Both the position numbers and the translations under genes were made by a program. The notes beneath the pieces were generated by a model, which searched no databases, was not told where the DNA came from, and saw nothing but the letters and a program-made list of their open reading frames with translations. A stretch of DNA of 64,000 nucleotides, from positions 124,001 through 188,000 of the forward strand of contig NZ_QAYG01000006.1 in the NCBI RefSeq assembly GCF_003053845.1, in the 5' to 3' direction. This document shows positions 7,562 to 25,606 of this stretch, piece after piece (position 1 is the stretch's first letter; every line of letters begins with the position of its first letter). Source of the stretch: Breoghania corrubedonensis (lineage in GTDB: Bacteria; Pseudomonadota; Alphaproteobacteria; Rhizobiales; Stappiaceae).

Positions 7562-9466
7562 TCACGAATACCGCTTCACGGCCCGGTAGCCGCCATTGTC
7601 GCCGTCGCCGCCATTTTCGCTATTCTCGCCGACAACCGCGTAACTGCCCGGAGCCTTGCGCTTGGCCGTGTACATCGCCTTGTCGGCGGCACGCAGCAGC
7701 TCGCTCGTGGTGCAACCGTCGCGCGGGGCTTCGGCAATGCCGATGCTGGCGGAAATGAGAATCGGTTCATCCTCAAGATCGTAGGGTTGCGAAATCTCCC
7801 GCCCCAGGATTTTGGCAAGCCGCTTCGCGTCCGACGTTTTCGAGCCGGCCGGCAGGATGACGGCGAATTCGTCGCCGCCAAGCCTGGCAACCATTGCTTC
7901 TGCGGGCAGGTGCTTGCGGAACCGTTCGGCAACGCGTGCCAGCAGGACATCCCCGGCATCGTGGCCACGCGTGTCGTTCACGCTCTTGAAACCGTCGAGA
8001 TCGATGAACATCAGCACGCATTGCGTTCCCTCATCGCGCGCGCGCATCAATTCGCCGTTGAGCCGGGTGTTGAACAGCGCGCGGTTCGGCAGATCCGTCA
8101 GGGTATCGAAATGAGCCTGGCGCCAGACGGCCTCCTCGGCCTCGACGCGGGCACTGACATCGCGCGTCACGATGATGTAGCGTTCGGAGAAGTCGCTGTC
8201 TTCGAAACGGCTGCCGCCGACATCGAGCCAGTAGGTACTGCCATCGGGTCGCGCCATCTGGCAGCGCACGGTCTTGTGACCTGCGAGAAATTCCGGATCA
8301 TCCAGCGACACCCCGGCCAGGAACTCGCCTATATTCGCACCGATGACCTTCGATTTCGGGTGGCCGCTGCGTCTGTTGACGGTCGAATTGCAATCGAGGA
8401 TCTGGCCGTCCGCATCCAGCACGATGAGCCCGTCGTTGGAGGCCTCGATCAGGCTGCGCAGATACGCCTTGTCGCGCAGATTGTTCGCGTGCATGCGGTC
8501 GAGCGCCGAACCGACCATCGCCAGGCGTTGCACCGTGTAGCGCCCGAACGCGTAGAGGATCAATCCGACCACGGCCACCAGCAGGGTCAGTTCCAGGAGA
8601 TGGAAGGCGCCGCCGAGATGGGTGTTCCAGACGATGGAGCCGACGCGGTGGCCGTCGCCATCGCGGATCACCACCTCGTTATTGCGGGATGAGGCCTCGT
8701 GTTCGATGGCGGCGATATCGTCCAGACCGAGTTCGCGGGCTATTGCCGCCAGACGGGCCGTGTCGAAGCGTACGGCCACGATGAGGACAGGCGCCGGATC
8801 GCCCGCCTCAACCGGCCGGCCTTCCAACTTCGGCGCGATGGGGCTGGCGGCGGTGAAGTAGGGGGCACCTCCATGCCAGAGCCATCCGGTGCGGATGTTT
8901 GAAAGCGAACCCGATGAGGCGCGGTGGTCATCGTCGCGCCAGACGATCCCCGTCATCCCGGGAAAGATCTCGGCCGGATCGAAAATGTCGCCGGCGCCGT
9001 CGTCGGCATGGGCGAGGATCTTCGTCCCGAGCACGATCGTCATTGCCGCGTAGCCTTCCAGTTCCAAGAGCGGAGGCAGGGGATTGACCTCGCTTCGAAT
9101 GCCGCCTTGCGTCGCCGCGCTGGGGATATCGATCCCGCTCCAGGGAAGGTCGAGCAGGATGCGGGCCTTGCTCGTCACGTGGTTCAGATACGAGGCGACC
9201 AGATCGCGCTGCTGCTCCTGGGTCTCGCGATACTGGTTGAAGACCTCGTAGGCGAACAGCACGGCGATGAGGATGAACTCGACGAGGAAGATCGTCCGCT
9301 TCAGGCGCGCCAGATCGCGCAGCAGCCCCGCCGCGCTTGGCCGGTCCTTGGTCTTCAACCCAGGTGAACGGGCCGCAGGTCGCAACTGTCTCCTCAAGAC
9401 CATGATCTGGTACCCGGTCAGCGTGTTCCGTAATGTGTTCCCTAACCGCAAGTCTCTCGCCGGCAT
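7562..9466 (-). CDS. Membrane-anchored PAS-GGDEF diguanylate cyclase
   Basis: This protein of about 634 residues should make cyclic di-GMP from two GTP. It has an N-terminal membrane helix (IFLVEFILIAVLFAYEVF), a periplasmic sensory region of about 210 residues and a second helix (LLVAVVGLILYAFGRY). A PAS domain (SLIEASNDGLIVLDADGQIL) and a GGDEF domain follow. The active-site loop is an intact LGGDEFAVIL. The usual RxxD product-inhibition site just upstream is replaced by PAEA, so feedback inhibition may be absent. There is no EAL domain. The start is uncertain: ATG 9466 is used, ATG 9403 is also possible and neither has a clear ribosome-binding site. Confidence 0.9.
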   Translation of the reverse strand: MPARDLRLGNTLRNTLTGYQIMVLRRQLRPAARSPGLKTKDRPSAAGLLRDLARLKRTIFLVEFILIAVLFAYEVFNQYRETQEQQRDLVASYLNHVTSKARILLDLPWSGIDIPSAATQGGIRSEVNPLPPLLELEGYAAMTIVLGTKILAHADDGAGDIFDPAEIFPGMTGIVWRDDDHRASSGSLSNIRTGWLWHGGAPYFTAASPIAPKLEGRPVEAGDPAPVLIVAVRFDTARLAAIARELGLDDIAAIEHEASSRNNEVVIRDGDGHRVGSIVWNTHLGGAFHLLELTLLVAVVGLILYAFGRYTVQRLAMVGSALDRMHANNLRDKAYLRSLIEASNDGLIVLDADGQILDCNSTVNRRSGHPKSKVIGANIGEFLAGVSLDDPEFLAGHKTVRCQMARPDGSTYWLDVGGSRFEDSDFSERYIIVTRDVSARVEAEEAVWRQAHFDTLTDLPNRALFNTRLNGELMRARDEGTQCVLMFIDLDGFKSVNDTRGHDAGDVLLARVAERFRKHLPAEAMVARLGGDEFAVILPAGSKTSDAKRLAKILGREISQPYDLEDEPILISASIGIAEAPRDGCTTSELLRAADKAMYTAKRKAPGSYAVVGENSENGGDGDNGGYRAVKRYS

Positions 9467-9833
9467 GCTTTGAGGAACAATGTGGCGGAACGACAAAGTT
9501 CGTGAAGCGCCTATTGTCGAGGCAACTCCTGAAAAAATTCACTAAAATGGATGTTTGATATTTGTTCTACTTATTGAAAACAAAAGAATATTGTCATTTT
9601 TAACCAGGTTGATTGCTCCGGGAATCGAATTCAACCACGCGCGCGCGAAGACTATCGAGGGTCTTGTCAGGGGAGACGTCTTTGTGGGAACACTGAGGGC
9701 GGACCAGGCAGAAAGCTGCATCCTCCCTCCAGATGATCCACCCCGGCGAGAGCATCAAACGCAGCTGTTACCGGGGCCCCGCTTTGTCCGGGGGATTCGC
9801 CTTCTTCTCATCGCGTGCCGCGGCCGGCAATGG

Positions 9834-9857
9834 ATTGCCCGGACTGCGCCGGGCAAT
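9834..9857. repeat. Dispersed palindrome ATTGCCCGG...CCGGGCAAT
   Basis: ATTGCCCGG at 9834-9842 and CCGGGCAAT at 9849-9857 form a perfect 9-bp stem, followed by GACGGGGGA. The same palindrome recurs near 22267, 36273 and 58355, always between genes. An imperfect GC-rich partner lies about 60 bases upstream. The gap 9467-9978 also contains an AT-rich stretch near 9545-9605 and otherwise nothing I recognise. Confidence 0.8.
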
Positions 9858-9978
9858 GACGGGGGAGGGGGCGCGGCGGCGGGGCGCGGGCGCGTTTGGT
9901 CCTGGCCTGCGCGGGGATGTTATCGAGGGTGGCGTGGGTGCTTTGGCCTTGCCCTTACCGCACCGGCACAGTCACCCG

Positions 9979-11292
9979 TTACTGCGCCGGCACCGCCACC
10001 CGGTTCGGGTTGTTGGGGTGCGTCGTCCAGTTGGCGTATGTCGGTTCCACCGTGCGGCCGGTGCGCGGATCGACCATGCCGGGCGTCATCGCCTCCATGG
10101 TGATGCAGCCCTCCACCGGGCAGACGTTGACGCACAGGTTGCAGCCGACACATTCCGCGTCGATCACCTCGAACCCCCGGTCGCCGTTGATCGTCGTGGC
10201 GATCGCCTGGTGGGAGGTGTCCTCGCAGGCGATGTGGCAGCGCCCGCACTTGATGCAAGTCTCCTGATCGATCTTCGCCTTGGCGATGTAGTTGAGGTTG
10301 AGGTACTGCCAGTCGGTGACGTTGGGCACGGCGCGGCCGACGAACTGATCGATGGAGGCATAGCCCTTCTCGTCCATCCAGTCGGAAAGCCCGGAGATCA
10401 TCTCCTCGACGATCTTGAAGCCGTAGGTCATCGCCGCCGTGCAGACCTGCACGTTGCCGGCCCCCAGCGCCATGAATTCGGCTGCATCGCGCCACGTCGT
10501 CACCCCGCCGATGCCGGAGATCGGCAGGCCGCGGGTTTCCGCATCGCGGGCGATTTCCGCCACCATGTTGAGCGCCATCGGCTTCACCGCCGGCCCGCAA
10601 TAGCCGCCATGCGTGCCCTTGCCGTCGACGGCGGGTTCCGGCGCCATCGCATCGAGATCGACGGAGGTGATCGAGTTCACCGTGTTGATCAGCGACACCG
10701 CGTCCGCCCCGCCCTTGTGGGCCGCGCGCGCGGGCTGACGGATATCGGTGATGTTCGGTGTCAGCTTGACGATGACCGGCATGCGCGTGTGTTTCTTGCA
10801 CCAGCGCGTCACCATCTCGATGTATTCGGGCACCTGACCGACGGCCGCGCCCATGCCGCGCTCCGACATGCCGTGCGGACAGCCGAAATTCAACTCCACG
10901 CCGTCGGCTTCCGTCTCCTCCACGAGCTTGAGGATACTGGCCCAGTTCTCCTCCTCGCAAGGAACCATCAGCGAGACCACCAGCGCCCGGTCGGGCCAGT
11001 TCTTCTTGACCCGCTTGATCTCCTGCAGGTTGAGCTGCAAGGGGCGGTCGGTGATCAGCTCGATGTTGTTGAAGCCGGTAAGCTGGCGGTCCTTGCCATG
11101 GGTCGCGCCATAGCGCGGACCGTTGACGTTGACGACCGGATCGCCGTCGCCGAGCGTCTTCCACACGACACCGCCCCAGCCCGCCTGAAAGGCGCGCACG
11201 ACGTTGTATTCCTTGTCGGTGGGCGGCGCGGAGGCCAGCCAGAACGGGTTCGGCGACTTGATACCGACGAATGAATTGGAAAGATCGGCCAT
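9979..11292 (-). CDS. preA: Dihydropyrimidine dehydrogenase (NAD+), PreA catalytic subunit
   Basis: This 437-residue subunit reduces uracil or thymine to the dihydro form, the first step of the reductive pyrimidine pathway. The N-terminal FMN-binding TIM barrel is like dihydroorotate dehydrogenase (FWLASAPPT, VELNFGCPHGMSERGMG, GIGGVTTW). The C-terminus carries two ferredoxin-type clusters, CIKCGRCHIACEDTSHQ and CVGCNLCVNVCPVEGC. The ATG at 11292 is preceded by GGGGAGAAAAGG. An in-frame 40-residue extension is rejected because it is arginine-rich and overlaps preT. PreA follows preT by 14 bases, and the two subunits should form the PreTA enzyme. Confidence 0.96.
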   Translation of the reverse strand: MADLSNSFVGIKSPNPFWLASAPPTDKEYNVVRAFQAGWGGVVWKTLGDGDPVVNVNGPRYGATHGKDRQLTGFNNIELITDRPLQLNLQEIKRVKKNWPDRALVVSLMVPCEEENWASILKLVEETEADGVELNFGCPHGMSERGMGAAVGQVPEYIEMVTRWCKKHTRMPVIVKLTPNITDIRQPARAAHKGGADAVSLINTVNSITSVDLDAMAPEPAVDGKGTHGGYCGPAVKPMALNMVAEIARDAETRGLPISGIGGVTTWRDAAEFMALGAGNVQVCTAAMTYGFKIVEEMISGLSDWMDEKGYASIDQFVGRAVPNVTDWQYLNLNYIAKAKIDQETCIKCGRCHIACEDTSHQAIATTINGDRGFEVIDAECVGCNLCVNVCPVEGCITMEAMTPGMVDPRTGRTVEPTYANWTTHPNNPNRVAVPAQ

Positions 11293-11306
11293 GGTCCTTT
11301 TCTCCC

Positions 11307-12659
11307 CTAAAGACCAAACGAACGGTGGATGGCGTCGGCGGCCCGTTTGCCGTCGGCAACGGCTGCGACCGTCAGGTCCTCGCCGCCGGCCACGCAATCG
11401 CCACCCGCCCACACGCCATCAACCGACGTGCGGCCGTCCTCGTCCACTTCGATGCGTCCACCTTCAAGCTTGGGCACGGCCCCCAGAAGCGGCGCATCGA
11501 GGAAGGTCTGGCCGATCGCCTTGAAGACCTGATCGACCTCGAGGCGCAATGTTTCGCCGGTGCCTTCGAGCCGCCCATCGTCGCCAGGCCGGGTGCCTTC
11601 CAGCACGATGGAGCTCACCCGTCCATGCGCGCCGATGAGGGCGGCCGGGCGCATCCAGTGGCGGATGACGACGCCGTTCGTCAGCGCCAGTTCCTGCTCG
11701 TAGGGGCTCGCCTTCATCTCGCCCGCGCCGCGACGATAGGCGATGGTCACGTCCTCCGCGCCCAGCCGCTTCATCTGCACGGCGATATCGATCGCGGTCA
11801 TGCCGCCGCCGATGACGACGACGCGCCGGCCCACGGGCAGCGTGGCGAGATCATCGGCCTGGCGCAGCCGCGCGATGTAGTCGACCGCGTCGAGCACGCC
11901 CTCCATCTCCTCGCCTTCGAGCCTCAGCGCATTGACGCCGGCAAGCCCCATGGCAAGGAACACCGCATCGTGTTTCACCTTCAGGTCGGCCAGCGTGAAA
12001 TCGCGACCCAGGGCCTTGCCCGCCTCAACCGTGATACCGCCGACCGACAGAATGAAATCGACCTCGGCCTGCGCGAAGCCGTCCACCGTCTTGTAGGCGG
12101 CGATACCGTATTCGTTGAGCCCGCCGAGTTTCTCCTTCGCGTCGTAGATGGTGACCGCATGGCCAAGCTCGGCCAGCCGGTGGGCACACGAAAGCCCCGC
12201 CGGGCCGCCGCCGACGATGGCGACGGTCTTGCCCGTCTCGGGCGCGCGGGTGGCGAAGCTCTTCGGTCGGGTCTCCAGGAAATGATCGGTCGCGTGGCGC
12301 TGCAGGAGGCCGATCTTCACCGGCTTGCCCTCGGCCTCCATGCGCACGCAGGCCTCCTCGCACAAGGTCTCCGTCGGGCAGACGCGGGCGCACATGCCGC
12401 CCAGAATGTTGCTCGCAAAGATCGTCTTGGCGGAGCCCGTGTCGTTGCCGGTCGAGATCTGGCGGATGAACAGCGGAATGTCGATCGAGGTCGGGCACGC
12501 CTGCGTACACGGCGCGTCGAAACAGAAATAGCAGCGGTCCGCCTCCACCACCGCCTCGTGCGCGTCGAGCGGGGGATGCAGATCGGTGAAATTGTCCAGA
12601 TACGCTTCGGCGGGCAGGCGGCCGCACGCAATGTCCGGACCGGACGCAACGTCGGTCAT
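11307..12659 (-). CDS. preT: Dihydropyrimidine dehydrogenase (NAD+), PreT subunit
   Basis: This 450-residue electron-transfer subunit resembles glutamate synthase small subunit. Cysteine clusters CYFCFDAPCTQACPTSID and MCARVCPTETLCEEAC lie in the first 105 residues and bind Fe-S centres. FAD-binding GGGPAGLSCA and a second nucleotide-binding GGGMTAIDIA follow, and the C-terminal FAD contact is VWAGGDCVAGG. GGAGG precedes ATG 12659. A RutR operator lies 196 bases upstream of the start, so preT-preA should be induced when uracil or thymine binds RutR. Confidence 0.96.
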   Translation of the reverse strand: MTDVASGPDIACGRLPAEAYLDNFTDLHPPLDAHEAVVEADRCYFCFDAPCTQACPTSIDIPLFIRQISTGNDTGSAKTIFASNILGGMCARVCPTETLCEEACVRMEAEGKPVKIGLLQRHATDHFLETRPKSFATRAPETGKTVAIVGGGPAGLSCAHRLAELGHAVTIYDAKEKLGGLNEYGIAAYKTVDGFAQAEVDFILSVGGITVEAGKALGRDFTLADLKVKHDAVFLAMGLAGVNALRLEGEEMEGVLDAVDYIARLRQADDLATLPVGRRVVVIGGGMTAIDIAVQMKRLGAEDVTIAYRRGAGEMKASPYEQELALTNGVVIRHWMRPAALIGAHGRVSSIVLEGTRPGDDGRLEGTGETLRLEVDQVFKAIGQTFLDAPLLGAVPKLEGGRIEVDEDGRTSVDGVWAGGDCVAGGEDLTVAAVADGKRAADAIHRSFGL

Positions 12660-12854
12660 GGAACCTCCTCGTCGCGCGGCCCCGTCGCACCGGACAGGGG
12701 GCGGAGCGCCGCGCGTTTCCCATTTTCATCGAACACGCGCAGGAAAAGGCCCCATCTCGCTCGGGGCGCTCCGCACCATGTTCCCGTCATTCAGGTGGTC
12801 GTTTCGACCCTTCTCGTGTGGCGGAAGGGTTCGTAACGTCAGTTTCGATGTTTT

Positions 12855-12870
12855 TTGACCAAATAGTCAA
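12855..12870. promoter_or_regulatory. RutR operator upstream of preT-preA
   Basis: TTGACCAAATAGTCAA differs by one base from the known RutR consensus TTGACCA-NN-TGGTCAA. It sits 196 bases upstream of preT in the gap between preT and rutR (12660-13092), which holds no other recognisable element. A second operator is at 14021. The presence of the rutR gene next door makes the assignment strong. Confidence 0.85.
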
Positions 12871-13092
12871 ATCCATTTTGACGTCGCGAGCGCCGCAATT
12901 TCGGGCAGGGACGGGGGAAACTGCACGTTTGGCGTGCGTTTGTCTCGCGAAGGGAACGGATGGCTCCCCCGGGGGAGGTTGATGCCTTGCGGGGCCGGGC
13001 GGCGAATTCCATTCTCGCCCGCAAAGGAGAGAGAAGGGCGCAAGACGTTGGTGCTCGGGGAAAACAAAGAACGGCGTGGCCGGGCGGCACGC

Positions 13093-13734
13093 TCAGGGGA
13101 TGAGCGCTTGCAGGAACAAGGCCTTCAGCGCGGCCTCGGCGTCCTTGTGGAAGCCGGGTTCGGCGATGGAACGTCCGGTGATCGCGCTGATCTGGGTTTC
13201 GAAGTCGGCATAGTGCTGCGTCGTCGCCCAGATCATGAAGACGAGGTGATAGGGATCGACCGGCTTCAACCGGCCTTCATCGATCCAGATGCGGATGACG
13301 CCGGCCTTGGCGTCGACCAGGTCCTTCAGGGGGCCTTTCAGCACGTCCATCATCGCCGGGGCGCCTTCCAGCACCTCGTTGGCGAAGAGGCGCGAGGCCT
13401 TGGGGTTCTTCGCGGAATGATCCAGCTTTCGGGCGATGTAGTCGCCAAGTTCGGCGGCCGGGTCGCCGGCGACGTCGAGCGCGCGCAGGGGTTTGAGCCA
13501 TTCGTCCAGAATCTCTTCCAGAACGGCCTTATAGATCTGCGCCTTGGAGGGGTAATAGTAGAGCAGGTTCGACTTCGACATGCCCGCTTCGCGGGCGATC
13601 TCGTCGAGCGTGGTGCCGCGAAAACCGAAGCGGGAAAAGATCTCCAGCGCGGCGGCGAGGATACGGTCGCGGTTGACCGTCTGGATACGGGTCGCCTTGC
13701 GCGGCCTTTTCCGGGCGGGCTCATCGAGGCTCAT
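13093..13734 (-). CDS. rutR: RutR, TetR-family pyrimidine-responsive regulator
   Basis: This 213-residue TetR-family protein has an N-terminal helix-turn-helix (FRGTTLDEIAREAGMSKSNL, about residues 38-57) followed by LLYYYPSKAQIY. The pattern with the ligand-domain motifs RLFANEVLEGAP and HLVFMIWATTQHYADF matches RutR, which is released from DNA by uracil or thymine. It is flanked by two copies of its operator, one before preT-preA and one before the aminotransferase gene. The gene is on the same strand as preT but separated by over 400 bases. An own-promoter operator is not evident unless the 14021 site serves both directions. Confidence 0.93.
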   Translation of the reverse strand: MSLDEPARKRPRKATRIQTVNRDRILAAALEIFSRFGFRGTTLDEIAREAGMSKSNLLYYYPSKAQIYKAVLEEILDEWLKPLRALDVAGDPAAELGDYIARKLDHSAKNPKASRLFANEVLEGAPAMMDVLKGPLKDLVDAKAGVIRIWIDEGRLKPVDPYHLVFMIWATTQHYADFETQISAITGRSIAEPGFHKDAEAALKALFLQALIP

Positions 13735-14020
13735 CGGTATCCACCATCGACATTCATCATCATCGGGTCGCGACCTCCTCTCCTCTGTCCCGCGGCAAGC
13801 CCTGTCGGTCCTCTGCTATAGCGCGTTTTTGTGCGCGGTTTCACCCAATTGCCGCAACGCGCTGCCGCGATGGTGCCCTCGCGGCTCGAAAAAACGCCCA
13901 TTTTTCGCGCGCTTGCGTCGCCACAACAAGGAAAACCCGGACTTTGGCCGTGATTGCTTTTGCATCGGGCTGGATAGAAAATGACCTTGACCGCGCTTGC
14001 GCGGCACTCCTATCGTTATC

Positions 14021-14036
14021 TTGACCAATTGGTCAG
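14021..14036. promoter_or_regulatory. RutR operator upstream of the aminotransferase operon
   Basis: TTGACCAATTGGTCAG matches the RutR consensus TTGACCA-NN-TGGTCAA at all but the last base. It lies 193 bases upstream of the aminotransferase start and 287 bases upstream of rutR, between divergent genes, so it could control both. The rest of 13735-14228 shows no other clear signal. Confidence 0.87.
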
Positions 14037-14228
14037 AAATCGCAACGTGAGACATCGGCCAAGTCTTGAAACTCGCGCAGGGTTTCAATGAAGATTGCGG
14101 GTATCGGAGCGTTCATTGCGGGATGTGCGCCTTCGAAATACGCGCAAGGCGGACAAGGCAATGCGAGGCGGGGTCTGACCCATCACGCGTGACCGCCTGG
14201 AAAGGCGGCGCGTTCGCTCGGAGGAATC

Positions 14229-15548
14229 ATGTCGCAGGCCGTCACCAACAATCTCGAAGCCTTCTGGATGCCGTTCACGGCGAACCGGCAGTTCAAGAAG
14301 AACCCGCGCATGCTGGTGGGCGCGAAGGACATGCACTACACCGCCGCCGACGGCCGCCAGATCCTCGACGGAACGGCGGGCCTGTGGTGCTGCAACGCCG
14401 GCCACGGGCGGCCGAAAGTGGTGGAAGCCATCCAGAAACAGGCCGCCGAGCTCGACTACGCGCCGGCCTTCCAGATGGGCCACCCGAAGGCGTTCGAGCT
14501 GGCCGCGCGGCTTTCCGCCATGATGCCGAAGCCGCTCGACCATGTGTTCTTCACCAATTCCGGTTCGGAATCGGTTGAAACCGCGCTGAAGACGGCGATC
14601 GCCTATCACCGCGCCAAGGGCAATGCCGCCAAGACCCGTCTCATCGGCCGTCAGCGCGGCTATCACGGGGTGAATTTCGGCGGCATTTCGGTCGGCGGCA
14701 TTTCCGGCAACCGCAAGATGTTCGGCTCGCTTCTCACTGGCGTCGACCACATCCGCGACACGCATGACATCGAGCGAAATGCCTTTACCCGCGGCCAGCC
14801 GGAGCATGGCGCGGAATTCGCCGATGACCTGCTGAATGTCATCAAGCTGCATGACGCATCCACCATCGCCGCCGTGATCGTGGAGCCGATGGCGGGCTCC
14901 ACCGGCGTGCTGATCCCGCCCAAGGGCTACCTGGAGCGGCTTCGCAAGATTTGCGACGACAACGACATCCTGCTGATCTTCGACGAGGTCATCACCGGCT
15001 TCGGGCGACTGGGCTCGGCGTTCGCGGTCGATCATTTCGGCGTGGTGCCGGACATGGTGACGACGGCCAAGGGCCTCACCTCGGGCACTGTGCCGATGGG
15101 CGCGGTGTTCGTTTCCTCCTCGATCTACGAGGCCTTCATGCAAGGGCCCGAACACATGATCGAGTTCTTCCACGGCTACACCTATTCCGGCCATCCGCTG
15201 GCCTGCGCCGCAGCACTCGGCACGCTCGACACCTATGAGGACGAGGGACTGATGACGCGCGGGGCGGAGCTTGCCGACCACTGGGCCGATGCGCTGCATT
15301 CGTTGAAAGATCATCCGCACGTCATCGACATCCGCAACATGGGGCTGATCGGCGCGGTGGAGCTGGAGCCGATCGCCGGCGAGCCGACCAAGCGGGCCTT
15401 CTCCGCCTTCCTGAAGGCCTTCGAGGAAGGCCTGATGATCCGCACCACCGGCGACATCATCGCGCTGTCGCCGCCGCTGATCATCTCCAGGGCGCAGATC
15501 GACGAGGTGTTCGGGATCTTGGGCAAGGTGCTGAAGGCGATCGATTAG
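14229..15548 (+). CDS. Beta-alanine:pyruvate aminotransferase (omega-amino acid transaminase)
   Basis: This 439-residue class III PLP transaminase should transfer the amino group of beta-alanine (from uracil) or 3-aminoisobutyrate (from thymine) to pyruvate, the last step encoded here. The start region NNLEAFWMPFTANRQFK is typical of omega-amino acid:pyruvate aminotransferases. LIFDEVITGFGRLG binds PLP, and the Schiff-base lysine is K281 in TTAKGLTSG. GGAGGAA precedes the ATG. A RutR operator lies 193 bases upstream. The next pathway gene follows after a 388-base gap holding a repeat element. Confidence 0.92.
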   Translation: MSQAVTNNLEAFWMPFTANRQFKKNPRMLVGAKDMHYTAADGRQILDGTAGLWCCNAGHGRPKVVEAIQKQAAELDYAPAFQMGHPKAFELAARLSAMMPKPLDHVFFTNSGSESVETALKTAIAYHRAKGNAAKTRLIGRQRGYHGVNFGGISVGGISGNRKMFGSLLTGVDHIRDTHDIERNAFTRGQPEHGAEFADDLLNVIKLHDASTIAAVIVEPMAGSTGVLIPPKGYLERLRKICDDNDILLIFDEVITGFGRLGSAFAVDHFGVVPDMVTTAKGLTSGTVPMGAVFVSSSIYEAFMQGPEHMIEFFHGYTYSGHPLACAAALGTLDTYEDEGLMTRGAELADHWADALHSLKDHPHVIDIRNMGLIGAVELEPIAGEPTKRAFSAFLKAFEEGLMIRTTGDIIALSPPLIISRAQIDEVFGILGKVLKAID

Positions 15549-15571
15549 AGGGGGCGGCATTCCCCCTCGGT

Positions 15572-15705
15572 GTCATCCCCGCGAAGGCGGGGATCCAGTA
15601 ACCACAGGGTGTGGTTGTCTGGCACGGCAATAACGAGTGACGCGGCCTCGGAGAGAACCGGCCGGCCGCGCCGTTTACTGGATCCCGGGTCAAGCCCGGG
15701 ATGAC
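15572..15705. repeat. Dispersed ~135-bp repeat ending GTCATCCC...GGGATGAC
   Basis: The element starts GTCATCCCCGCGAAGGCGGG and ends CCCGGGTCAAGCCCGGGATG plus AC. Each end is itself a hairpin. A related copy lies at 17963-18108, sharing CAGTAACC, TGTCTGGC, GGAGAGAACCGG and the last 30 bases. It looks like a non-coding palindromic element of the kind common between genes in Alphaproteobacteria. It sits inside the pyrimidine operon, in a gap (15549-15936) with nothing else recognisable. Confidence 0.82.
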
Positions 15706-15936
15706 AATTGCGGGTGGGGCGGTGATCGGGGGCAATTGGGTCCCCGACCGCGGTTGCTTCCCGGCAGGCTTCAAAGCGCCCCGCCATGAGGGCGCGCGAC
15801 AACGCGACGACTGGCCTTTCGGGCGAAACCCGCGGCAAAAGCGGGAGCCGATCGGCTGGACCAGAACTGAAGAGAGCGGAACAGAGTGCGGCGCGCCAGC
15901 GCCGGGGATGACATCGGCGATCAGGGGGACTGACGT

Positions 15937-17205
15937 ATGGCCGCAACTACCGGAGCACCGGGCGAGAACCTGCGGATCAACGCCGACAGGCTGCGGGACA
16001 GCCTGATGGAAATGGCGAAGATCGGGCCGGGCGTCGCCGGCGGCAACAACCGCCAGACGCTGACCGACGCCGACAGCGAGGGCCGCAGGCTCTTCCAGAA
16101 ATGGTGCGAGGATGCTGGCATGACCATGGGCGTCGATACCATGGGCAACATGTTCATGACGCGGCCCGGCACCGAGCCGGATCTGCCGGCGGTCTATGTC
16201 GGCTCCCATCTCGATACCCAGCCCACGGGGGGCAAGTATGACGGCGTTCTCGGCGTTCTCGGCGCGCTGGAGATCTGCCGCACGCTCAACGATCTGGGCA
16301 TCAAGACCAGACATCCCATCGTCGTCACCAACTGGACGAACGAGGAAGGCACGCGGTTCGCGCCCGCCATGCTGGCCTCGGGCGTCTTCGCCGGCCAGCA
16401 CGAGGAGGCCTGGGCCAAGGCGCGCGAGGACGCCAAGGGCCTGAAATTCGGCGATGAACTCAAGCGCATCGGCTGGCAGGGCGAGGAGCCGGTGGGCGCG
16501 CGCAAGGACAAGATCAAGGCGTTCTTCGAACTCCACATCGAGCAGGGGCCGATCCTGGAGGCCGAGGGCAAGGATATCGGCGTCGTCACCCACGGCCAGG
16601 GGCTGTGGTGGCTGCAGGTGACCGTGACCGGCAAGGACAGTCACACCGGCTCCACCCCGATGCCGCTGCGCAAGAATGCCGGTCTCGGCATGGCGCGGAT
16701 GACGGAGCTCGTTCACGAAATCGCCATGGGCCACCAGCCCAACGCGGTGGGCGCCATCGGCCATTGCGACGTTTATCCCAATTCCAGAAACGTCATTCCG
16801 GGCAAGGTGGTCTTCACCGTCGATTTCCGCTCGCCCGACCAGACCATCCTCGACGGCATGAAGGCACGCTTCGAGGTGGAAGCGCCGAAAATCGCTCAAG
16901 ACCTGGGTCTTGGTATTGAGATCGAGGTTTCCGGGCATTTCGATCCGGTGACCTTCGATCCGGGATGCGTCAAGGCCGTGCGCGATGCGGCGGAGCGGCT
17001 GGGCTATTCGCACCGCGACATCGTGTCGGGCGCCGGGCACGACGCCTGCTGGATCAACCGCGTGGCCCCGACCTCGATGGTCATGTGCCCCTGCGTCGAC
17101 GGGCTCTCGCACAACGAGGCGGAAGAGATTTCCAAGGACTGGGCGAAAGCGGGCGCCGACGTGCTGTTTCACGCGGTGGTGGAGACGGCGGAGATCGTGG
17201 GGTGA
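15937..17205 (+). CDS. Beta-ureidopropionase / N-carbamoyl-amino acid amidohydrolase (M20 family)
   Basis: This 422-residue metal-dependent amidohydrolase should convert N-carbamoyl-beta-alanine to beta-alanine, CO2 and ammonia. The family signatures are visible: GSHLDTQPTGGKYDGVLG (about residues 88-105) with metal-binding His and Asp, TNWTNEEGTRFAP with the catalytic Glu pair, ELHIEQGP, and near the end GAGHDACW with a late metal-ligand histidine. Similar enzymes act on allantoate or L-N-carbamoyl amino acids, but the dihydropyrimidinase neighbour favours beta-ureidopropionase. The stop codon overlaps the GTG start of the next small gene. Confidence 0.92.
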   Translation: MAATTGAPGENLRINADRLRDSLMEMAKIGPGVAGGNNRQTLTDADSEGRRLFQKWCEDAGMTMGVDTMGNMFMTRPGTEPDLPAVYVGSHLDTQPTGGKYDGVLGVLGALEICRTLNDLGIKTRHPIVVTNWTNEEGTRFAPAMLASGVFAGQHEEAWAKAREDAKGLKFGDELKRIGWQGEEPVGARKDKIKAFFELHIEQGPILEAEGKDIGVVTHGQGLWWLQVTVTGKDSHTGSTPMPLRKNAGLGMARMTELVHEIAMGHQPNAVGAIGHCDVYPNSRNVIPGKVVFTVDFRSPDQTILDGMKARFEVEAPKIAQDLGLGIEIEVSGHFDPVTFDPGCVKAVRDAAERLGYSHRDIVSGAGHDACWINRVAPTSMVMCPCVDGLSHNEAEEISKDWAKAGADVLFHAVVETAEIVG

Positions 17206-17762
17206 AGACTGGCTGGATCCGGCGCGAGCTGAAGATCTTCTGGTGGCGGATCTTGTTGCCGACCACGATTTTTCTTGGAGGAACAGCCTATCTCATCAGT
17301 TTGCTGTTTTGGGATGGGCCGGACCGATTGCGGCCGTTGATACCGGCGGGAATTCAGACGGGACAAGCCGTCTATTATAACAGTGAATGGTTCCATCCAA
17401 GGTACGGAAGTTGTGTGGTTGCGGTGTTCGCTCTGGAGGCAGAATTTGCGGAACGTTTGCGCAGGGAAGGGGCGGGCGCTCTCGTTAATCCGGAATCTTT
17501 GAGACCCGATCTCGATGAGCGAGGTAGTGAAACCAGGGGGTATTCTGCCTGGCAAGGAGGACCTGTAGCGATGAGCGATACCGATATGACAGAGCGAAAT
17601 ATCTCCCTTGCGGCAGGATGCATGAGAAGCAGTGTCGAGTATTCCCGCATCTACGCAAAATATGCACACGGTGAGCGCGGTTTTTACTCCAAGCACACCA
17701 GTGGGACGATTGCGATTATTGCTCCGGTTGAGGGACTTCTCTTTTTGGCGCCCGAACCGTGA
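17202..17762 (+). CDS. Hypothetical protein with one N-terminal membrane segment
   Basis: I do not recognise this 186-residue protein. A GTG at 17202 overlaps the upstream stop as GTGA, which suggests coupled translation. One membrane segment (ILLPTTIFLGGTAYLISLLFW) lies at about residues 17-37 after a basic start, and the rest is probably periplasmic with two cysteines. Its base composition is lower in GC than its neighbours and codon use looks less biased. It is followed by a repeat-rich gap. It may be an insertion into the pyrimidine cluster rather than a pathway member. Confidence 0.6.
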   Translation: MKTGWIRRELKIFWWRILLPTTIFLGGTAYLISLLFWDGPDRLRPLIPAGIQTGQAVYYNSEWFHPRYGSCVVAVFALEAEFAERLRREGAGALVNPESLRPDLDERGSETRGYSAWQGGPVAMSDTDMTERNISLAAGCMRSSVEYSRIYAKYAHGERGFYSKHTSGTIAIIAPVEGLLFLAPEP

Positions 17763-17814
17763 TCCAAGGCCGGCCGCAAAGCAGATCCATGACCTTTCCC
17801 CTCCTTCATCGCCA

Positions 17815-17911: not shown

Positions 17912-17962
17912 GGGGGGATGGGACGTGACGACGGTGTGCCGGGCGTCCGTTTACTCCTCGAT

Positions 17963-18108: not shown

Positions 18109-18174
18109 AAGTGAGGTTGAGGTCGGGTTCCGTGCCATGCCGCACGGACGCCAGAGGACAACGGGAGGTACCTT

Positions 18175-19175: not shown

Positions 19176-20633
19176 ATGGCATCGAAAGTCATCAAGGGCG
19201 GCACGGTCGTCACCGCGGATCTGACCTACAGAGCGGACGTGAAAATCGAGGGCGACGTGATCGTCGAGATCGGCCCGAACCTGTCCGGCGACGAGGTGCT
19301 GGATGCGACCGGCTGCTACGTCATGCCGGGCGGGATCGATCCGCACACGCATCTGGAAATGCCCTTCATGGGCACCTATTCGACGGATGATTTCGAAAGC
19401 GGCACGCGGGCGGGGCTTGCCGGCGGCACGACCATGGTGGTCGATTTCGCGCTGCCCAACCCCGAACAATCGCTGCTGGAAGCGATCCAGCGCTGGGACA
19501 ACAAGTCGACGCGCGCCAATTGCGACTATTCCTTCCACATGGCGATCACCTGGTGGGGCGAGCAGGTCTTCAACGAGATGGAGACCGTGGTGCGCGAGAA
19601 GGGCATCAACACCTTCAAGCACTTCATGGCGTACAAGGGCGCGCTGATGGTGGATGACGACGAGATGTTCGCCTCGTTCTCGCGCTGCGCCGAGCTTGGC
19701 GCGCTGCCGCTGGTGCATGCGGAAAACGGCGACGTGGTCGCCCAGCTTCAGGCCAAGCTGATGGCCGAGGGCAATAACGGCCCCGAGGCGCATGCCTATT
19801 CGCGCCCGGCGGAAGTGGAGGGCGAGGCCACCAACCGCGCCATCATGATCGCCGATATGGCGGGCGTGCCGGTCTATATCGTGCACACCTCCTGCGAGCA
19901 GTCGCATGAGGCGATCCGGCGCGCCAAGCAGAACGGCATCCGGTGTTATGGCGAGCCGCTCATCCAGCACCTGACGCTGGATGAGAGCGAGTATCAAAGC
20001 GGCGACTGGGACCATTCCGCCCGCCGGGTGATGTCGCCGCCCTTCCGCAACAAGAAGCATCAGGACAGCCTGTGGGCGGGGCTTCAGGCCGGCACGCTGC
20101 AGGTGGTGGCGACCGACCATTGCGCTTTCACTACCGATCAGAAGCGCTACGGCGTGGGCGACTTCACCAAGATCCCGAACGGCACCGGCGGACTGGAAGA
20201 CCGGATGCCGATGTTGTGGACCTACGGGGTTGGCACGGGGCGTCTGACCATGAACGAGTTCGTCGCCGTGACATCGACCAACATCGCCAAGATCCTCAAT
20301 ATCTACCCCAAAAAGGGCGCCGTGCTGGTGGGCGCGGATGCCGATCTCGTCGTGTGGGACCCGGCGAAGGAAAAGACGATCTCGGCCACCTCGCAGCAAT
20401 CGGCCATCGACTACAACGTCTTCGAGGGCAAGCCGGTGAAGGGCCTGCCGCGCTACACGCTGACACGCGGACATGTGGCGATCATGGACGGCGAAATCCG
20501 CACGCAGGAAGGCCACGGCAAGTTCGTGGCGCGCGAGCCGTTCACTGCGGTCAACCGGGCGCTGTCGCAGTGGAAGGAAGTGATGGCACCGCGGAAAGTC
20601 CAGCGGGCGGGCATTCCGGCAAGCGGCGTCTAG
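19176..20633 (+). CDS. hydA: Dihydropyrimidinase
   Basis: This 485-residue amidohydrolase opens the ring of dihydrouracil or dihydrothymine to N-carbamoyl-beta-amino acid, the second step of the pathway. It has the binuclear-metal pattern: His57 and His59 in DPHTHLE, the lysine that is carboxylated in FMAYKG (residue 154), later histidines in LVHAENGD and YIVHTSCEQSH, and the aspartate in ATDHCAF. Length fits the D-hydantoinase/dihydropyrimidinase family. AGAGGAA precedes the ATG. It lies between preTA/rutR and the ABC importer genes. Confidence 0.95.
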   Translation: MASKVIKGGTVVTADLTYRADVKIEGDVIVEIGPNLSGDEVLDATGCYVMPGGIDPHTHLEMPFMGTYSTDDFESGTRAGLAGGTTMVVDFALPNPEQSLLEAIQRWDNKSTRANCDYSFHMAITWWGEQVFNEMETVVREKGINTFKHFMAYKGALMVDDDEMFASFSRCAELGALPLVHAENGDVVAQLQAKLMAEGNNGPEAHAYSRPAEVEGEATNRAIMIADMAGVPVYIVHTSCEQSHEAIRRAKQNGIRCYGEPLIQHLTLDESEYQSGDWDHSARRVMSPPFRNKKHQDSLWAGLQAGTLQVVATDHCAFTTDQKRYGVGDFTKIPNGTGGLEDRMPMLWTYGVGTGRLTMNEFVAVTSTNIAKILNIYPKKGAVLVGADADLVVWDPAKEKTISATSQQSAIDYNVFEGKPVKGLPRYTLTRGHVAIMDGEIRTQEGHGKFVAREPFTAVNRALSQWKEVMAPRKVQRAGIPASGV

Positions 20634-20643
20634 CGGCGGGCGG

Positions 20644-21228: not shown

Positions 21229-22074
21229 GTGACGACGAGTGCAGCACAAAGCCGGACACCGGCGGGCGCGGGAGAGGCTCGCGGCCTGGCGGCGCGTGCC
21301 AGCGTGATCGAGGCGAGGGATCTCTCGCTCACCTTCGAGACCTCCGACGGCCCGGTTCACGCCCTGTCGAACATCGCGCTTGATGTGGCGCGCGGCGAGT
21401 TCGTGTCGTTCATCGGGCCGTCGGGCTGCGGCAAGACCACGCTTTTGCGCGTCATCGCGGATCTGGAACAGCCGACATCCGGGCGTATCACGGTCAATGG
21501 CGGCACGCCGGAGCAGGCGCGGCTCGACCGCTCTTACGGCTATGTCTTTCAGGCGGCAGGGCTCTATCCCTGGCGCACGATCGCCGGCAACATCGCCCTG
21601 CCGCTGGAGATCATGGGGTTTTCGAAGGCCGAGCGGCAAAAGCGCATCGCAAAGAACCTGGAGCTGGTGAACCTCTCAGGGTTTGAACGCAAGTTCCCCT
21701 GGCAGCTTTCCGGCGGCATGCAGCAGCGCGCCTCCATCGCCCGCGCGCTGTCGTTCGATCCCGATCTGCTGCTGATGGACGAGCCCTTCGGCGCGCTCGA
21801 CGAGATCGTGCGCGATCACCTGAACGAGCAGTTGCTGAAGCTCTGGGCGAAGACGGAGAAGACGGTGGTCTTCGTCACCCACTCGATCCCCGAAGCGGTG
21901 TTCCTGTCGACCAAGATCGTGGTGATGAGCCCGCGTCCGGGGCGGATCCACGACATCATCGAGAGCGACCTGCCGAGGGAGAGGGATCTGGATATCCGCG
22001 AAACGCCGGAATTCCTGGAGATCGCGCATCGGGTGCGCGAAGGCTTGCGTGCGGGGCACAGTTATGAGGATTGA
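21229..22074 (+). CDS. ABC transporter ATP-binding protein, probable pyrimidine importer
   Basis: This 281-residue SsuB/TauB-like ATPase should energise uptake of a nucleobase or related compound. Walker A is GPSGCGKTT, the signature LSGGMQQR, Walker B LLLMDEPFGALDE and the switch histidine is in VTHSIPEA. About 25 low-complexity residues precede the ABC domain. The start is GTG with only a moderate ribosome-binding site (GGGAACGAC). It is separated from its two permease genes by a 438-base gap full of repeats, which is unusual for one operon. Confidence 0.9.
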   Translation: MTTSAAQSRTPAGAGEARGLAARASVIEARDLSLTFETSDGPVHALSNIALDVARGEFVSFIGPSGCGKTTLLRVIADLEQPTSGRITVNGGTPEQARLDRSYGYVFQAAGLYPWRTIAGNIALPLEIMGFSKAERQKRIAKNLELVNLSGFERKFPWQLSGGMQQRASIARALSFDPDLLLMDEPFGALDEIVRDHLNEQLLKLWAKTEKTVVFVTHSIPEAVFLSTKIVVMSPRPGRIHDIIESDLPRERDLDIRETPEFLEIAHRVREGLRAGHSYED

Positions 22075-22208
22075 GGGCGTGCTTTGGGTTGCGCAAGGGG
22101 CGGTTCGTCCTCGCTGTCTGCCTCCACTCGATGTCATCCCGGCCCCATTTATTAAGTTTGGGCCGGAATTCAGCATCCCGCGGCGGGGGCCGATGCGTTC
22201 GATCAACG

Positions 22209-22290
22209 ATGCCCGGCGCAGTCCGGGTGATCCAATCGGGCGTGCGACGCATCGGGGCGGCGCTGGATTGCCCGGACTGCGCCGGGCAAT
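22209..22290. repeat. Paired palindromes of the ATTGCCCGG family
   Basis: ATGCCCGG...CCGGGTGAT (22209-22231) is followed 36 bases later by ATTGCCCGG...CCGGGCAAT (22267-22290). The same pair in the same order occurs at 58296-58378. Confidence 0.8.
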
Positions 22291-22364
22291 GACGGTGGAG
22301 AGAGCGGGCCGGGATGACATCGAATGTGTGGCTGGCTTTGTTCGTTTGCGGCTGGCGCCAATCA

Positions 22365-22477
22365 CCTCTCCCATGGGGAGAGGTCGACGCAAAGCGTCGG
22401 GTGATGGGATGGGATGTTTCGTGGATACGGATGACCCGACACCCCTCACCCCAGCCCTCTCCCCAAGGGAGAGGGGG
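22365..22477. repeat. 113-bp dispersed repeat with palindromic ends
   Basis: The left end CCTCTCCCATGGGGAGAGG and right end CCCTCTCCCCAAGGGAGAGG plus GGG are hairpins. A homologous copy of the same length lies at 57366-57478, sharing the hairpins, GCGTCGGGT and the central GTGGATACGGATG-like segment in partly inverted form. Together with the paired palindromes it fills the 22075-22512 gap between the ATPase and permease genes. Confidence 0.8.
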
Positions 22478-22512
22478 CTAGTTCGGGATTTGCTGGAGCG
22501 GAGGGCCGCCGC

Positions 22513-23394
22513 ATGACCCGCCTCTTTTCCGGCCGCACCGGCCCCGTGTTCGTCGTCGTCCTCGCGATCATCGCGATCTGGTATGCGGCGGCCGTGTATC
22601 TCAACGCGCCGTTCCAGCGCGATACCTATGCACGCGCCAAGCAGGCGGATGTACCGGTGACGCAGCTGGTCACCGATACGCTCAATCAGGACCGGCCCGT
22701 TCTGCCCGCGCCCCATCAGGTGGCGGAGGAGATCTGGCAGACGACCGTGATGAAGTCCGTCACGTCGAAGCGCTCGCTCGTCTATCACGCGGGCGTCACG
22801 CTTTCCTCCACGCTTCTGGGCTTCGTCATCGGCACGGTGCTGGGCGTTCTGCTCGCCGTCGGCATCGTGCACAGCCGCGTGCTCGACAAGTCGCTGATGC
22901 CGTGGGTGATCTCCTCGCAGACGATCCCGATCCTGGCGATCGCGCCGATGATCATCGTGGTCTTGAACGCCATCGGCATATCGGGGCTCCTGCCCAAGGC
23001 GTTCATCTCCACCTATCTGTCGTTCTTTCCCGTCACCGTGGGCATGGTGAAGGGGCTGAGATCGCCGGAAATCCTGCATCTCGACCTCATGCGCACCTAC
23101 AACGCCTCGAAGACCCAGGTGTTCTGGAAACTCCGGTTTCCCTACGCGGTGCCCTACCTCTTCACCTCGATGAAGGTGGCGGTGGCGGCCTCGCTGGTCG
23201 GTGCCATCGTCGGCGAATTGCCGACAGGCGCGGTCGCCGGGCTCGGCGCGCGGCTGCTTTCGGGCTCCTATTACGGGCAGACGGTGCAGATCTGGTCGGC
23301 GCTGATCGCGGCCTCCGTCATGGCCGCCGTGCTGGTGGCGCTGGTCGGGATCGCCAACGGAATCGTGCTCAAGCGGATGGGGATGGCGCGATGA
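22513..23394 (+). CDS. ABC transporter permease 1, probable pyrimidine importer
   Basis: This 293-residue permease has an N-terminal membrane helix (VFVVVLAIIAIWYAAAVYL), a periplasmic stretch of about 60 residues, then the five-helix BPD_transp_1 core. The cytoplasmic coupling loop is DLMRTYNASKTQVFWKLRFP. Its stop overlaps the next permease start (ATGA), so the two are translated together and probably form a heterodimer. Family placement is with SsuC/TauC and THI5-type transporters. Confidence 0.88.
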   Translation: MTRLFSGRTGPVFVVVLAIIAIWYAAAVYLNAPFQRDTYARAKQADVPVTQLVTDTLNQDRPVLPAPHQVAEEIWQTTVMKSVTSKRSLVYHAGVTLSSTLLGFVIGTVLGVLLAVGIVHSRVLDKSLMPWVISSQTIPILAIAPMIIVVLNAIGISGLLPKAFISTYLSFFPVTVGMVKGLRSPEILHLDLMRTYNASKTQVFWKLRFPYAVPYLFTSMKVAVAASLVGAIVGELPTGAVAGLGARLLSGSYYGQTVQIWSALIAASVMAAVLVALVGIANGIVLKRMGMAR

Positions 23395-24560
23395 GGGGGA
23401 CCATGGAACGGGCCCTGCCGATGGCGGCCGGCGCGGCTGCGGTGTTCGGGCTGGTGCTGCCGCTGTTTGCCGGCGAGGCCGGGACGGTTTCGACGTGGAG
23501 CGAAACCGGCGTGCTGGTCTTCGCGCTCGCGGTACTGGTGATGGCGGGGGAGAATTTGCTCGGGGTCGTGGCGCAAGGGAAGGGGGTGTCGGGTGCCTCC
23601 TGGTTCCAGGGTCCCTCCGGCGACATGATCATCGCTGTCATTGCCCATTTCGGCGCCTGGGTTCTGCTCTCCGCGCTGGGCGGTCATTCTGGCGAGGCCG
23701 CAGGCGGGTTCTGGGCGCTGTTCATCGCCGCCTGGCTGACGGGCTGGCTGTTTGTCCAGCGGCTGGCGAACAGGAAGTTCGCGTCGAAGGCGGTCCAGCG
23801 GCTCGCGGGCATCGCGATCCCGCTGCTCTTCGGCGTGTGGGTGCTGATCGCCTGGCAGGCGCTCGTCACCGGCTTCGGCGTGCCGAAGGTGCTGCTGCCG
23901 GCGCCAAGCGAAATCTGGGTGCGGCTCATCCATGGTTTCCCGACGCCGCTGTGGCCGGATTTCCGCCAGACCTTCCTGAAGGCCGTGCTGATCGGCTACG
24001 GCTTGGGCTGCGGGTCGGGCTTTCTTGTCGCGCTGCTGGTCGTCCGGGTGGATTTCCTCAGGCGCGGGCTGCTGCCCGTCGGAAACCTCGTTTCCGCGCT
24101 TCCCATCGTCGGTGTCGCGCCGATCATGGTGATGTGGTTCGGCTTCGACTGGCAATCGAAGGCCGCCGTCGTCATCATCATGACCTTCTTTCCGATGCTG
24201 GTGAACACGGTCGCGGGGTTGGCTGCCTCCGATCACATGCAGCGCGATCTGATGCGCACCTATGCCGCCTCGCACTGGCAGACGCTCGTGAAGCTCAGGC
24301 TTCCGCAGGCGCTGCCTTTCATTTTCAATGCCCTGAAGATCAATTCAACATTGGCTCTGATCGGGGCTATCGTTGCGGAATTTTTCGGGACGCCGACGGT
24401 GGGCATGGGCTTTCGCATCTCGACCGAAGTCGGCCGCATGAATGTCGACATGGTCTGGGCCGAGATCGCCGTCGCGGCGCTCGCCGGCTCGCTGTTCTAC
24501 GGGTTGATGACGCTGTTGGAGAGGGTTTTCACGTTCTGGCATCCATCGTTCCGCACATAA
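23391..24560 (+). CDS. ABC transporter permease 2, with extended N-terminus
   Basis: This 389-residue permease carries the SsuC-like core in its C-terminal 260 residues (VPKVLLPAPSEIWVRL, coupling loop DLMRTYAASHWQTLVKLRLP). About 120 extra N-terminal residues hold three or four additional membrane segments, unlike the usual 250-280-residue family member. ATG 23391 overlaps the upstream stop; ATG 23403 is an alternative. It is followed 44 bases later by the binding-protein gene. Confidence 0.87.
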   Translation: MRGTMERALPMAAGAAAVFGLVLPLFAGEAGTVSTWSETGVLVFALAVLVMAGENLLGVVAQGKGVSGASWFQGPSGDMIIAVIAHFGAWVLLSALGGHSGEAAGGFWALFIAAWLTGWLFVQRLANRKFASKAVQRLAGIAIPLLFGVWVLIAWQALVTGFGVPKVLLPAPSEIWVRLIHGFPTPLWPDFRQTFLKAVLIGYGLGCGSGFLVALLVVRVDFLRRGLLPVGNLVSALPIVGVAPIMVMWFGFDWQSKAAVVIIMTFFPMLVNTVAGLAASDHMQRDLMRTYAASHWQTLVKLRLPQALPFIFNALKINSTLALIGAIVAEFFGTPTVGMGFRISTEVGRMNVDMVWAEIAVAALAGSLFYGLMTLLERVFTFWHPSFRT

Positions 24561-24604
24561 AACAAAAGGGACGGGTTTGCCGAAACCAGAGGGAGAATGA
24601 GGAC

Positions 24605-25606
24605 ATGAGGAAAGTATTGTGGGGTGCCGTGGCACTGGCGGCCGGGTTCGGCATGGCGAATGCGGGTGTATCCGGGGCGCAGGCCGCGGACGCGGTGACG
24701 CTGCAGCTCAAATGGGTCACCCAGGCGCAGTTCGGCGGCTATTACGTCGCCAAGGACAAGGGGTTTTATGAGGACGAGGGCCTCGACGTCACGATCAAGC
24801 CGGGCGGCCCGGACATCGCGCCGCCGCAGGTGATCGCGGGCGGCGGGGCCGATGTTGTTGTCGACTGGATGCCCTCGGCGCTGGCGTCGCGCGAAAAGGG
24901 CGTGCCGCTGGTCAACATCGCCCAGCCGTTCAAGAAATCCGGCATGATGCTGACATGTCTCAAGGAGAGCGGCGTCAAGACCCCCGACGACTTCAAGGGC
25001 AAGACGCTGGGCGTGTGGTTCTACGGCAATGAATATCCGTTCCTGTCGTGGATGGCACATCTGAAGATCCCGACCGACGGCGGTCCGGACGGCGTCAAGG
25101 TGCTGAAGCAGGGCTTCAACGTCGATCCGCTTTTGCAGAAGCAGGCGGCCTGCATCTCCACCATGACCTACAACGAATATTGGCAGGTGATCGACGCCGG
25201 CATTTCCGAGGACGATCTCGTCGTCTTCAAGTACGAGGACCAGGGCGTCGCGACGCTGGAAGACGGGCTCTACGTGCTGGAGAAGAACCTCGACGATCCC
25301 GCCTTCGTCGACAAGATGGCGCGTTTCGTGAAGGCGTCGATGAAGGGCTGGGAATATGCCCGCGAGCACCCGGACGAGGCGGCGGACATCGTTTTGGAAA
25401 ACGACGCCACCGGCGCGCAGACCGAAAAGCACCAGCGCCGGATGATGCGCGAGATCAACAAGCTGACCGAGGGCTCCGACGGCGCGCTGGATGAGGCCGA
25501 TTACAAGCGCACGGTCGAGACGCTGCTGTCGGGCGGTTCCGATCCGGTCATCACCAAGGAGCCGGAAGGCGCCTGGTCGCAGGTCGTCACGGACAAGGCG
25601 CTGTGA
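24605..25606 (+). CDS. NMT1/THI5-like substrate-binding protein, probable pyrimidine importer
   Basis: This 333-residue periplasmic protein has a signal peptide (MRKVLWGAVALAAGFGMANA, cleaved near SGAQA-A). The family signature LQLKWVTQAQFGGYYVAKDK follows, then FYEDEGLDVTIKPGG. Relatives bind hydroxymethylpyrimidine or other heterocycles. No thiamine riboswitch is visible upstream, and the pathway neighbours favour uracil, thymine or a dihydropyrimidine as ligand. GGGAGAATGAGGAC precedes the ATG. A hairpin terminator follows. Confidence 0.9.
   Translation: MRKVLWGAVALAAGFGMANAGVSGAQAADAVTLQLKWVTQAQFGGYYVAKDKGFYEDEGLDVTIKPGGPDIAPPQVIAGGGADVVVDWMPSALASREKGVPLVNIAQPFKKSGMMLTCLKESGVKTPDDFKGKTLGVWFYGNEYPFLSWMAHLKIPTDGGPDGVKVLKQGFNVDPLLQKQAACISTMTYNEYWQVIDAGISEDDLVVFKYEDQGVATLEDGLYVLEKNLDDPAFVDKMARFVKASMKGWEYAREHPDEAADIVLENDATGAQTEKHQRRMMREINKLTEGSDGALDEADYKRTVETLLSGGSDPVITKEPEGAWSQVVTDKAL

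Follow-up and report, generated by a model that had tools for sequence, protein, structure and literature searches.

A RutR-like regulator and its predicted operators at a reductive uracil locus of Breoghania corrubedonensis, with a conserved hairpin in the preT leader

In a 64,000-nt stretch of the Breoghania corrubedonensis genome (hereafter, the window), a RutR-like regulator of the TetR type is encoded between the genes that it probably controls. Judging from the sequence, we give a probability of roughly 85% to the reading that this protein represses two arms of a reductive uracil locus and is released by uracil. The regulator would bind two predicted operators, one serving preT-preA and the other serving aptA and, further downstream, the genes for the amidase, the dihydropyrimidinase and the importer, and would act by occluding promoter DNA; rutR itself is probably repressed as well. 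At aptA, the surviving half of a decayed operator would form the -35 box, with a -10 box just beyond it and an intact operator over the start, whereas the preT operator would itself contain the -35 box, and the preT mRNA would start with a conserved hairpin downstream of the operator.

The genes of the locus are as follows.

9979..11292, minus strand: preA, NAD-dependent dihydropyrimidine dehydrogenase subunit PreA (NF006183, 736 bits against a cut-off of 335)
11307..12659, minus strand: preT, dihydropyrimidine dehydrogenase flavoprotein subunit (Fer4_20 and Pyr_redox_2 domains; no NCBIfam model over cut-off)
13093..13734, minus strand: rutR-like regulator gene, 213 aa (TetR_N and TetR_C_3, YcdC-like)
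14229..15548, plus strand: aptA, omega-aminotransferase, predicted beta-alanine transaminase (NF052567 AptA, 759 bits against a cut-off of 500)
15937..17205, plus strand: Zn-dependent amidase of the hydantoinase/carbamoylase family, predicted beta-ureidopropionase (subfamily models NF006769 and TIGR01879 over cut-off)
19176..20633, plus strand: hydA, dihydropyrimidinase (TIGR02033, 591.5 bits against a cut-off of 393.25)
21229..25606, plus strand: ABC importer genes (ATPase, permeases and substrate-binding protein), predicted pyrimidine uptake (no model over cut-off)

Following the generally known order of steps in the reductive uracil pathway, these enzymes and the importer could together provide the full route from uracil to malonate semialdehyde. 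The substrates of the amidase and the importer are predicted, that of the amidase because of its neighbour genes. The name preT was assigned from its domains (dihydropyrimidine dehydrogenase domain II) and its place before preA, and the NF006183 profile begins at residue 41 of the listed preA frame. S. meliloti and Roseinatronobacter likewise have importer genes next to hydA and rutR. In the whole genome, estimated to be 100% complete, the best matches to RutA (60 bits against 498.3) and RutB (81.9 against 377.95) fell far below the cut-offs, and the oxidative Rut route is therefore absent by this model test. Dispersed repeats are also found between the catabolic genes, at 15587-15734 and 17990-18137 and also at 9822-9879 and 22210-22312; they comprise 148 nt at 76% identity, 58 nt at 86% and inverted arms of 25-35 nt, and resemble palindromic intergenic repeats.

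The regulator contains both domains expected of its type (PF00440, 55.6 bits against a cut-off of 24; PF08362, 173.7 bits against 25), and its best solved relatives are the E. coli RutR structures (E ~1e-59). W77, Y97, W167, Q171 and Q179, listed in the available part of PMC10891134 as the uracil-contacting residues of E. coli RutR, are all identical in the regulator, as are K52 and K62 of the helix-turn-helix. The scores for the stricter NCBIfam RutR models TIGR03613 (247 bits against 368) and NF011584 (220.8 against 230) lie below both cut-offs, and we thus call the protein RutR-like rather than a RutR equivalog. At E ≤0.001, a search of the genome gave only general TetR-type matches besides this protein, the next best sharing 37% identity over 77 residues only. 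The best reading of the conserved pocket is that uracil would act as the inducer.

Two operators are predicted on either side of the regulator gene.

12855..12870, no strand assigned: operator 1 (preT operator), TTGACCAAATAGTCAA, which reads TTGACTATTTGGTCAA in the direction of preT
14021..14036, no strand assigned: operator 2 (aptA-proximal), TTGACCAATTGGTCAG, overlapping the predicted aptA transcription start

An earlier note had proposed that two near-consensus operators flank rutR about 195 bases upstream of catabolic gene starts, and this description is borne out. Each 16-mer differs at one position from TTGACCANNTGGTCAA, which we take to be the RutR palindrome consensus, expected near target promoters. 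Operator 1 separates the 3' end of rutR from preT, a gene on the same strand, and lies 222 nt from the rutR stop and 195 nt from the preT ATG (12659, minus strand). Operator 2 is located between the divergent rutR and aptA genes, at 286 nt from the rutR ATG (13734) and 192 nt from the aptA ATG (14229). A first question is whether these are chance palindromes, which we consider a negligible prospect. TTGACC-like words are promoter words, and weaker matches in the genome are no commoner than in a reversed control; against this, sites with at most one mismatch to TTGACCANNTGGTCAA are expected 0.017 times per 64 kb (60 first-order Markov simulations of the window composition) and two were found, both of them intergenic, flanking rutR and conserved in relatives. 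The family pattern TTGACYRNNYRGTCAR gave no match in the 60 simulated windows (strand counted).

The genome-wide search for such 16-mers that the earlier note had suggested was carried out with TTGACYRNNYRGTCAR, whose only exact matches in the 5.33-Mb genome were operators 1 and 2. Allowing one mismatch yielded 42 strand-hits (operators 1 and 2 included), no more than the reversed control gave (62), and the weaker matches thus look like chance background. Seventeen off-window matches, in groups of 9 and 8 loci, were inspected; each lies under at least one open frame of at least 90 codons, which in GC-rich DNA is weak evidence against an operator role, and none was convincing as a further regulon site. 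Within the window, no operator within 3 mismatches was found upstream of the amidase, hydA or importer genes, and their control would therefore depend on read-through over gaps of at least 388 nt.

We then compared the locus with its relatives. A total of 61 genomes, our own included, were searched, of which 44 encode the regulator at E ≤1e-40, and 40 regions were fetched. The preT operator is identical in nine fetched relatives (L073, L074, L075, L079-L082, L084 and L085). Across the family's 30 best preT loci, counting that of the window, it has at most 2 mismatches in 28 and a weaker form in L105 and L112. Among 13 preT loci compared, the preT operator is missing from L062 and L065, the former of which also lacks one before aptA. 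In L074, a metagenome-assembled genome of the same genus, no operator within 3 mismatches was observed between rutR and aptA. In this Breoghania assembly (L074/L023) the left half of operator 2 is missing; moreover, the alignment of rutR shifts between frames, those of aptA and preT are cut short, and preT has one internal TGA, possibly through assembly errors.

The distances between operators and genes are far less uniform than the operators themselves. At preT, the operator lies 84-87 nt from the ATG in 10 of 28 loci and 163-301 nt away in the other 18, with 36 nt in L054, and a long preT leader is thus common among relatives. At aptA, with the operator nearer the gene as the reference point (in L058, the one site scored), the distance is 257-428 nt in 21 relatives, the exceptions being 98 nt in L091 and 73 nt in L061, while L088 has weak sites only. 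The near-equal leaders of the window had been regarded as notable; since the lengths vary independently among relatives (36-301 nt at preT and 73-428 nt at aptA), we rejected equal leaders as a common device and ascribe the match of 195 and 192 nt to coincidence.

A feature on which the earlier note did not remark is that the rutR/aptA gap of relatives contains two operators, usually about 33 bp apart. In the window, the place of the upstream operator of this tandem pair is occupied by a decayed site, and the elements around it are as follows.

13987..14002, no strand assigned: decayed third operator, with the left half TTGACC intact and 5 of 6 letters of the right half differing from GGTCAA
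13987..13992, plus strand: predicted aptA -35 box TTGACC, inside the decayed operator (word used as anchor in the comparison below)
14011..14016, plus strand: predicted aptA -10 box TATCGT, 18 bp after the -35 box

This arrangement would place the aptA transcription start near 14023, inside operator 2. To examine its constancy, 54 loci were considered, in 50 of which TTGACC (TTGAGC in one case) with a second operator after it provided an anchor; left out were L039, L040 and L047, whose aptA is missing from the stretch, and the decayed L074, and in 6 of the 50 anchored loci aptA is likewise missing from the fetched stretch. These loci correspond to 34 distinct segments, all of which have TANNNT at a spacing of 17 (21 segments) or 18 (13 segments). 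The same word was found in 0 of 34 segments at each of the spacings 6-16 and 19-22, and in 11 of 34 at spacing 23. Only the -10 box counts as an independent result, because the -35 word was part of the anchor, and the counts show constancy rather than probability, because related genomes are not independent trials. Five loci (the window, L043, L044, L052 and L169) have an upstream operator with 3-5 mismatches in the right half and 0 or 1 in the left, so that decay spares the half predicted as a promoter box. In five others (L045, L048, L050, L051 and L166) it is the right half of the downstream operator that has decayed (2-4 mismatches) with the left half kept, which the -35 argument does not explain.

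This geometry bears on a second reading, in which the regulator is a distant activator or anti-repressor, the true promoters lie near the genes and the operators are far-upstream sites. Such action has a precedent, as E. coli RutR activates from -177 to -192 of carAB P1 according to the accessible portion of PMC6245113, and the operators here are indeed distant from the start codons. Nevertheless, the -10-like box keeps its spacing between the aptA-side operators in every distinct segment, the five decayed upstream operators retain their -35 half, and the distance to the gene varies widely, in contrast to the constant internal spacing of the operator region, all of which make this reading very improbable. 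The same promoter-like geometry argues against promoters located downstream of, and independent from, the operators at aptA, the case that the earlier note had named as refuting its proposal. We keep repression by promoter occlusion as the preferred reading at both aptA and preT.

A further complication is a tandem paralogue, RutR2, which lies beside rutR in many relatives (about 40% identity, with the same uracil pocket and the same K52 and K62) and was found in 9 of 45 genomes of a related genus (g2); it is absent from the B. corrubedonensis genome. The helix-turn-helix of the paralogue starts with IPKAN or LPKAN instead of MSKSN in L053, L056, L073, L075-L086 and L089, again with the same pocket. 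It could be argued that the aptA operator pair was built for RutR2 and that the pair of the window is partly a relic, a reading that is compatible with repression and that we regard as unlikely. After 9 of the 54 loci had been dropped for a missing aptA, and with the window and L074 scored as "not both intact" in agreement with the by-eye reading, 18 of the 20 loci with RutR2 had at most 2 mismatches in each operator, as did 14 of the 25 lacking it (Fisher p = 0.02, uncorrected for relatedness). This link is a hint only, weak and confounded by relatedness. The decayed upstream operator of the window also speaks for this reading. On the other side, 14 of the 25 loci lacking RutR2 retain both operators, the two paralogues share the same pocket and the same lysines, and no RutR2 remnant was detected when 13735-13990 was searched (best E 1.8).

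On the preT side, the following elements were predicted.

12865..12870, minus strand: predicted preT -35 box TTGACT, inside operator 1 (by-eye reading)
12776..12854, minus strand: preT leader RNA element (match to covariance model R1, 28.6 bits; the sequence is in the training set)
12800..12838, minus strand: predicted preT leader hairpin, whose inner stem covaries in relatives

The -10 position at a spacing of 17 (12842-12847) reads CGAAAC in the window and is YCCAAT-like in many relatives; judged by eye, this is a conserved but poor box, above all in the window, and the preT promoter is accordingly a weak assignment.

Downstream of the operator, 31 preT leaders (82 nt each, window included) could be aligned on a hairpin, all six consensus pairs of which show two-sided changes. 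The covariation of this 6-pair stem was 0.771, compared with 0.316 for shuffled alignments (reached by 0 of 500) and 0.20-0.29 for slid ones, and that of a 12-pair stem was 0.508 compared with 0.240. Not all shuffle measures rose above the shuffles: for the 6-pair stem two of five did not (two-sided-change pairs, 71/500; further pair types, 252/500), and for the 12-pair stem one did not (128/500). One inner pair is broken in 6 sequences and another in 9, pairing in the outer helix reaches only 65.8% of cells, and the window copy has non-standard pairs at the four outer positions of the model.

Searches with model R1 extended the element to untrained genomes. Among 45 genomes of genus g2, 39 were matched, once each and always 4-8 nt before preT, which corresponds to 39 of the 41 preT-bearing genomes; 30 of the matched genomes were untrained. 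Of the six unmatched genomes, four have no preT (E ≤1e-100), one (G094) has preT at a contig edge and one (G091) is a true miss. A model-free alignment of 22 of the 30 untrained sequences had 92.9% paired cells, with a covariation of 0.262 against 0.136 for shuffles (0/500) and 0.07-0.18 for slid alignments. Over 297 genomes of the order, R1 gave 11 strong matches (E <2e-6), all in the family and adjoining preT, four of them untrained. Another 17 weaker matches outside the family (L139-L155, E 9e-4 to 0.1) were taken as noise because preT is missing from the fetched stretch. The window copy has E 0.0025 in its own genome, with the next best at 1.39; under the stricter filters of the order-wide search the own genome gave no R1 match, although it was found in the other R1 searches. 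No Rfam 15 family (4227 families) matched window positions 9000-27000 at the gathering threshold, and 12 preT loci searched against Rfam at E ≤1 yielded two matches, neither at the leader. The fold z-scores in the window were -2.31 for the preT leader and -1.79 for the aptA leader.

Any effect of the hairpin would probably come after initiation, through the stability or the translation of the mRNA. We put forward tentatively, and at rather less than even odds, that the preT leader is a new cis-acting regulatory RNA. In this view a hairpin near the 5' end, with an AACGA-type loop on a stem that varies but covaries, precedes an AUCGCC-like box, and dihydropyrimidine dehydrogenase, already under RutR-type repression, would be controlled a second time after initiation, in response to a small RNA, a protein or a pyrimidine. 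That the hairpin is a passive 5' stabiliser is no less likely than that it is regulated. In either case, the hairpin, present in a single copy per genome where found and beside the same gene, is a well-delimited target for searches for unannotated regulatory RNAs in Alphaproteobacteria.

Other leader features were noted in passing. By eye, a GRGRAACA-like block recurs in several long preT leaders downstream of the hairpin (12660-12800, minus strand), and a second hairpin comes after it, closer to the ribosome site; in the window the block is GGGAACAUG, followed by a GCGGAGCGCC / GGCGCUCCGC stem. The aptA leader of 25 of the 44 aptA-bearing loci among L026-L052 and L160-L182 carries a YCCAGA[G/T] box, mostly directly 3' of a variable-stem hairpin (24 distinct segments folded), which is absent from the window; box and hairpin may be a second leader element, the aptA counterpart of the one at preT. 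When aptA leaders were aligned over their whole length, no consensus fold emerged, and an Rfam search of 15 rutR/aptA loci at a relaxed threshold gave two microRNA families only, far below the gathering score.

Taken as a whole, the locus places a well-studied type of repressor on the reductive uracil pathway with a clear operator-promoter design. RutR-like control of the reductive route is known biology. The earlier note's proposal of such control agrees with the RutR-like protein, its pocket, the pathway genes and the conserved operators, whereas the novelty it implied does not stand, because PydR, predicted RutR regulons and two similar alphaproteobacterial layouts are already in print or in sequenced genomes.

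PydR of Pseudomonas putida, reportedly the subject of a 2012 paper by Hidese et al. that PMC7332683 cites, is said in that paper's title to be RutR-like and to repress dihydropyrimidine dehydrogenase. Likened to the present system by this title alone, it would exert the very control of the reductive-pathway enzyme proposed here, in a host of another bacterial class than that of the window. Leyn et al. (2016, PMC5343134) also predicted RutR to govern pyrimidine catabolism in 68 genomes, which span 13 taxonomic groups; in the parts of that source available to us, neither a leader RNA nor a tandem operator with a promoter inside it is mentioned for these regulons. Among the open-licence literature matches listed, none has as its subject a preT leader RNA or RutR in a reductive pathway of alphaproteobacteria; PMC4448311 and PMC7685610, in the portions available, mention RutR in E. 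coli predictions and in a promoter motif of Azospirillum small RNAs, respectively.

Two alphaproteobacterial layouts are close to that of the window. On pSymB of S. meliloti the regulator gene has the amidase gene, hydA and the importer genes as neighbours, and preTA is located about 7 kb away, past two transposase genes; in Roseinatronobacter the regulator is located between the amidase and preTA; both have a 2-mismatch site between the amidase and the regulator. E. coli RutR belongs to the same subfamily as the regulator of the window (46% identity, with the same pocket and DNA-reading lysines) and likewise has a palindromic box of about 16 bp and a regulator gene divergent from the target operon, its rutA-rutR box having 3 mismatches to the symmetric consensus. 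It differs in governing the oxidative rutA-G operon and carAB, whereas the neighbours of the window regulator encode the reductive route and RutA and RutB fall below cut-off. Compared with these systems, what the present analysis adds is the promoter-operator geometry and the preT leader hairpin.
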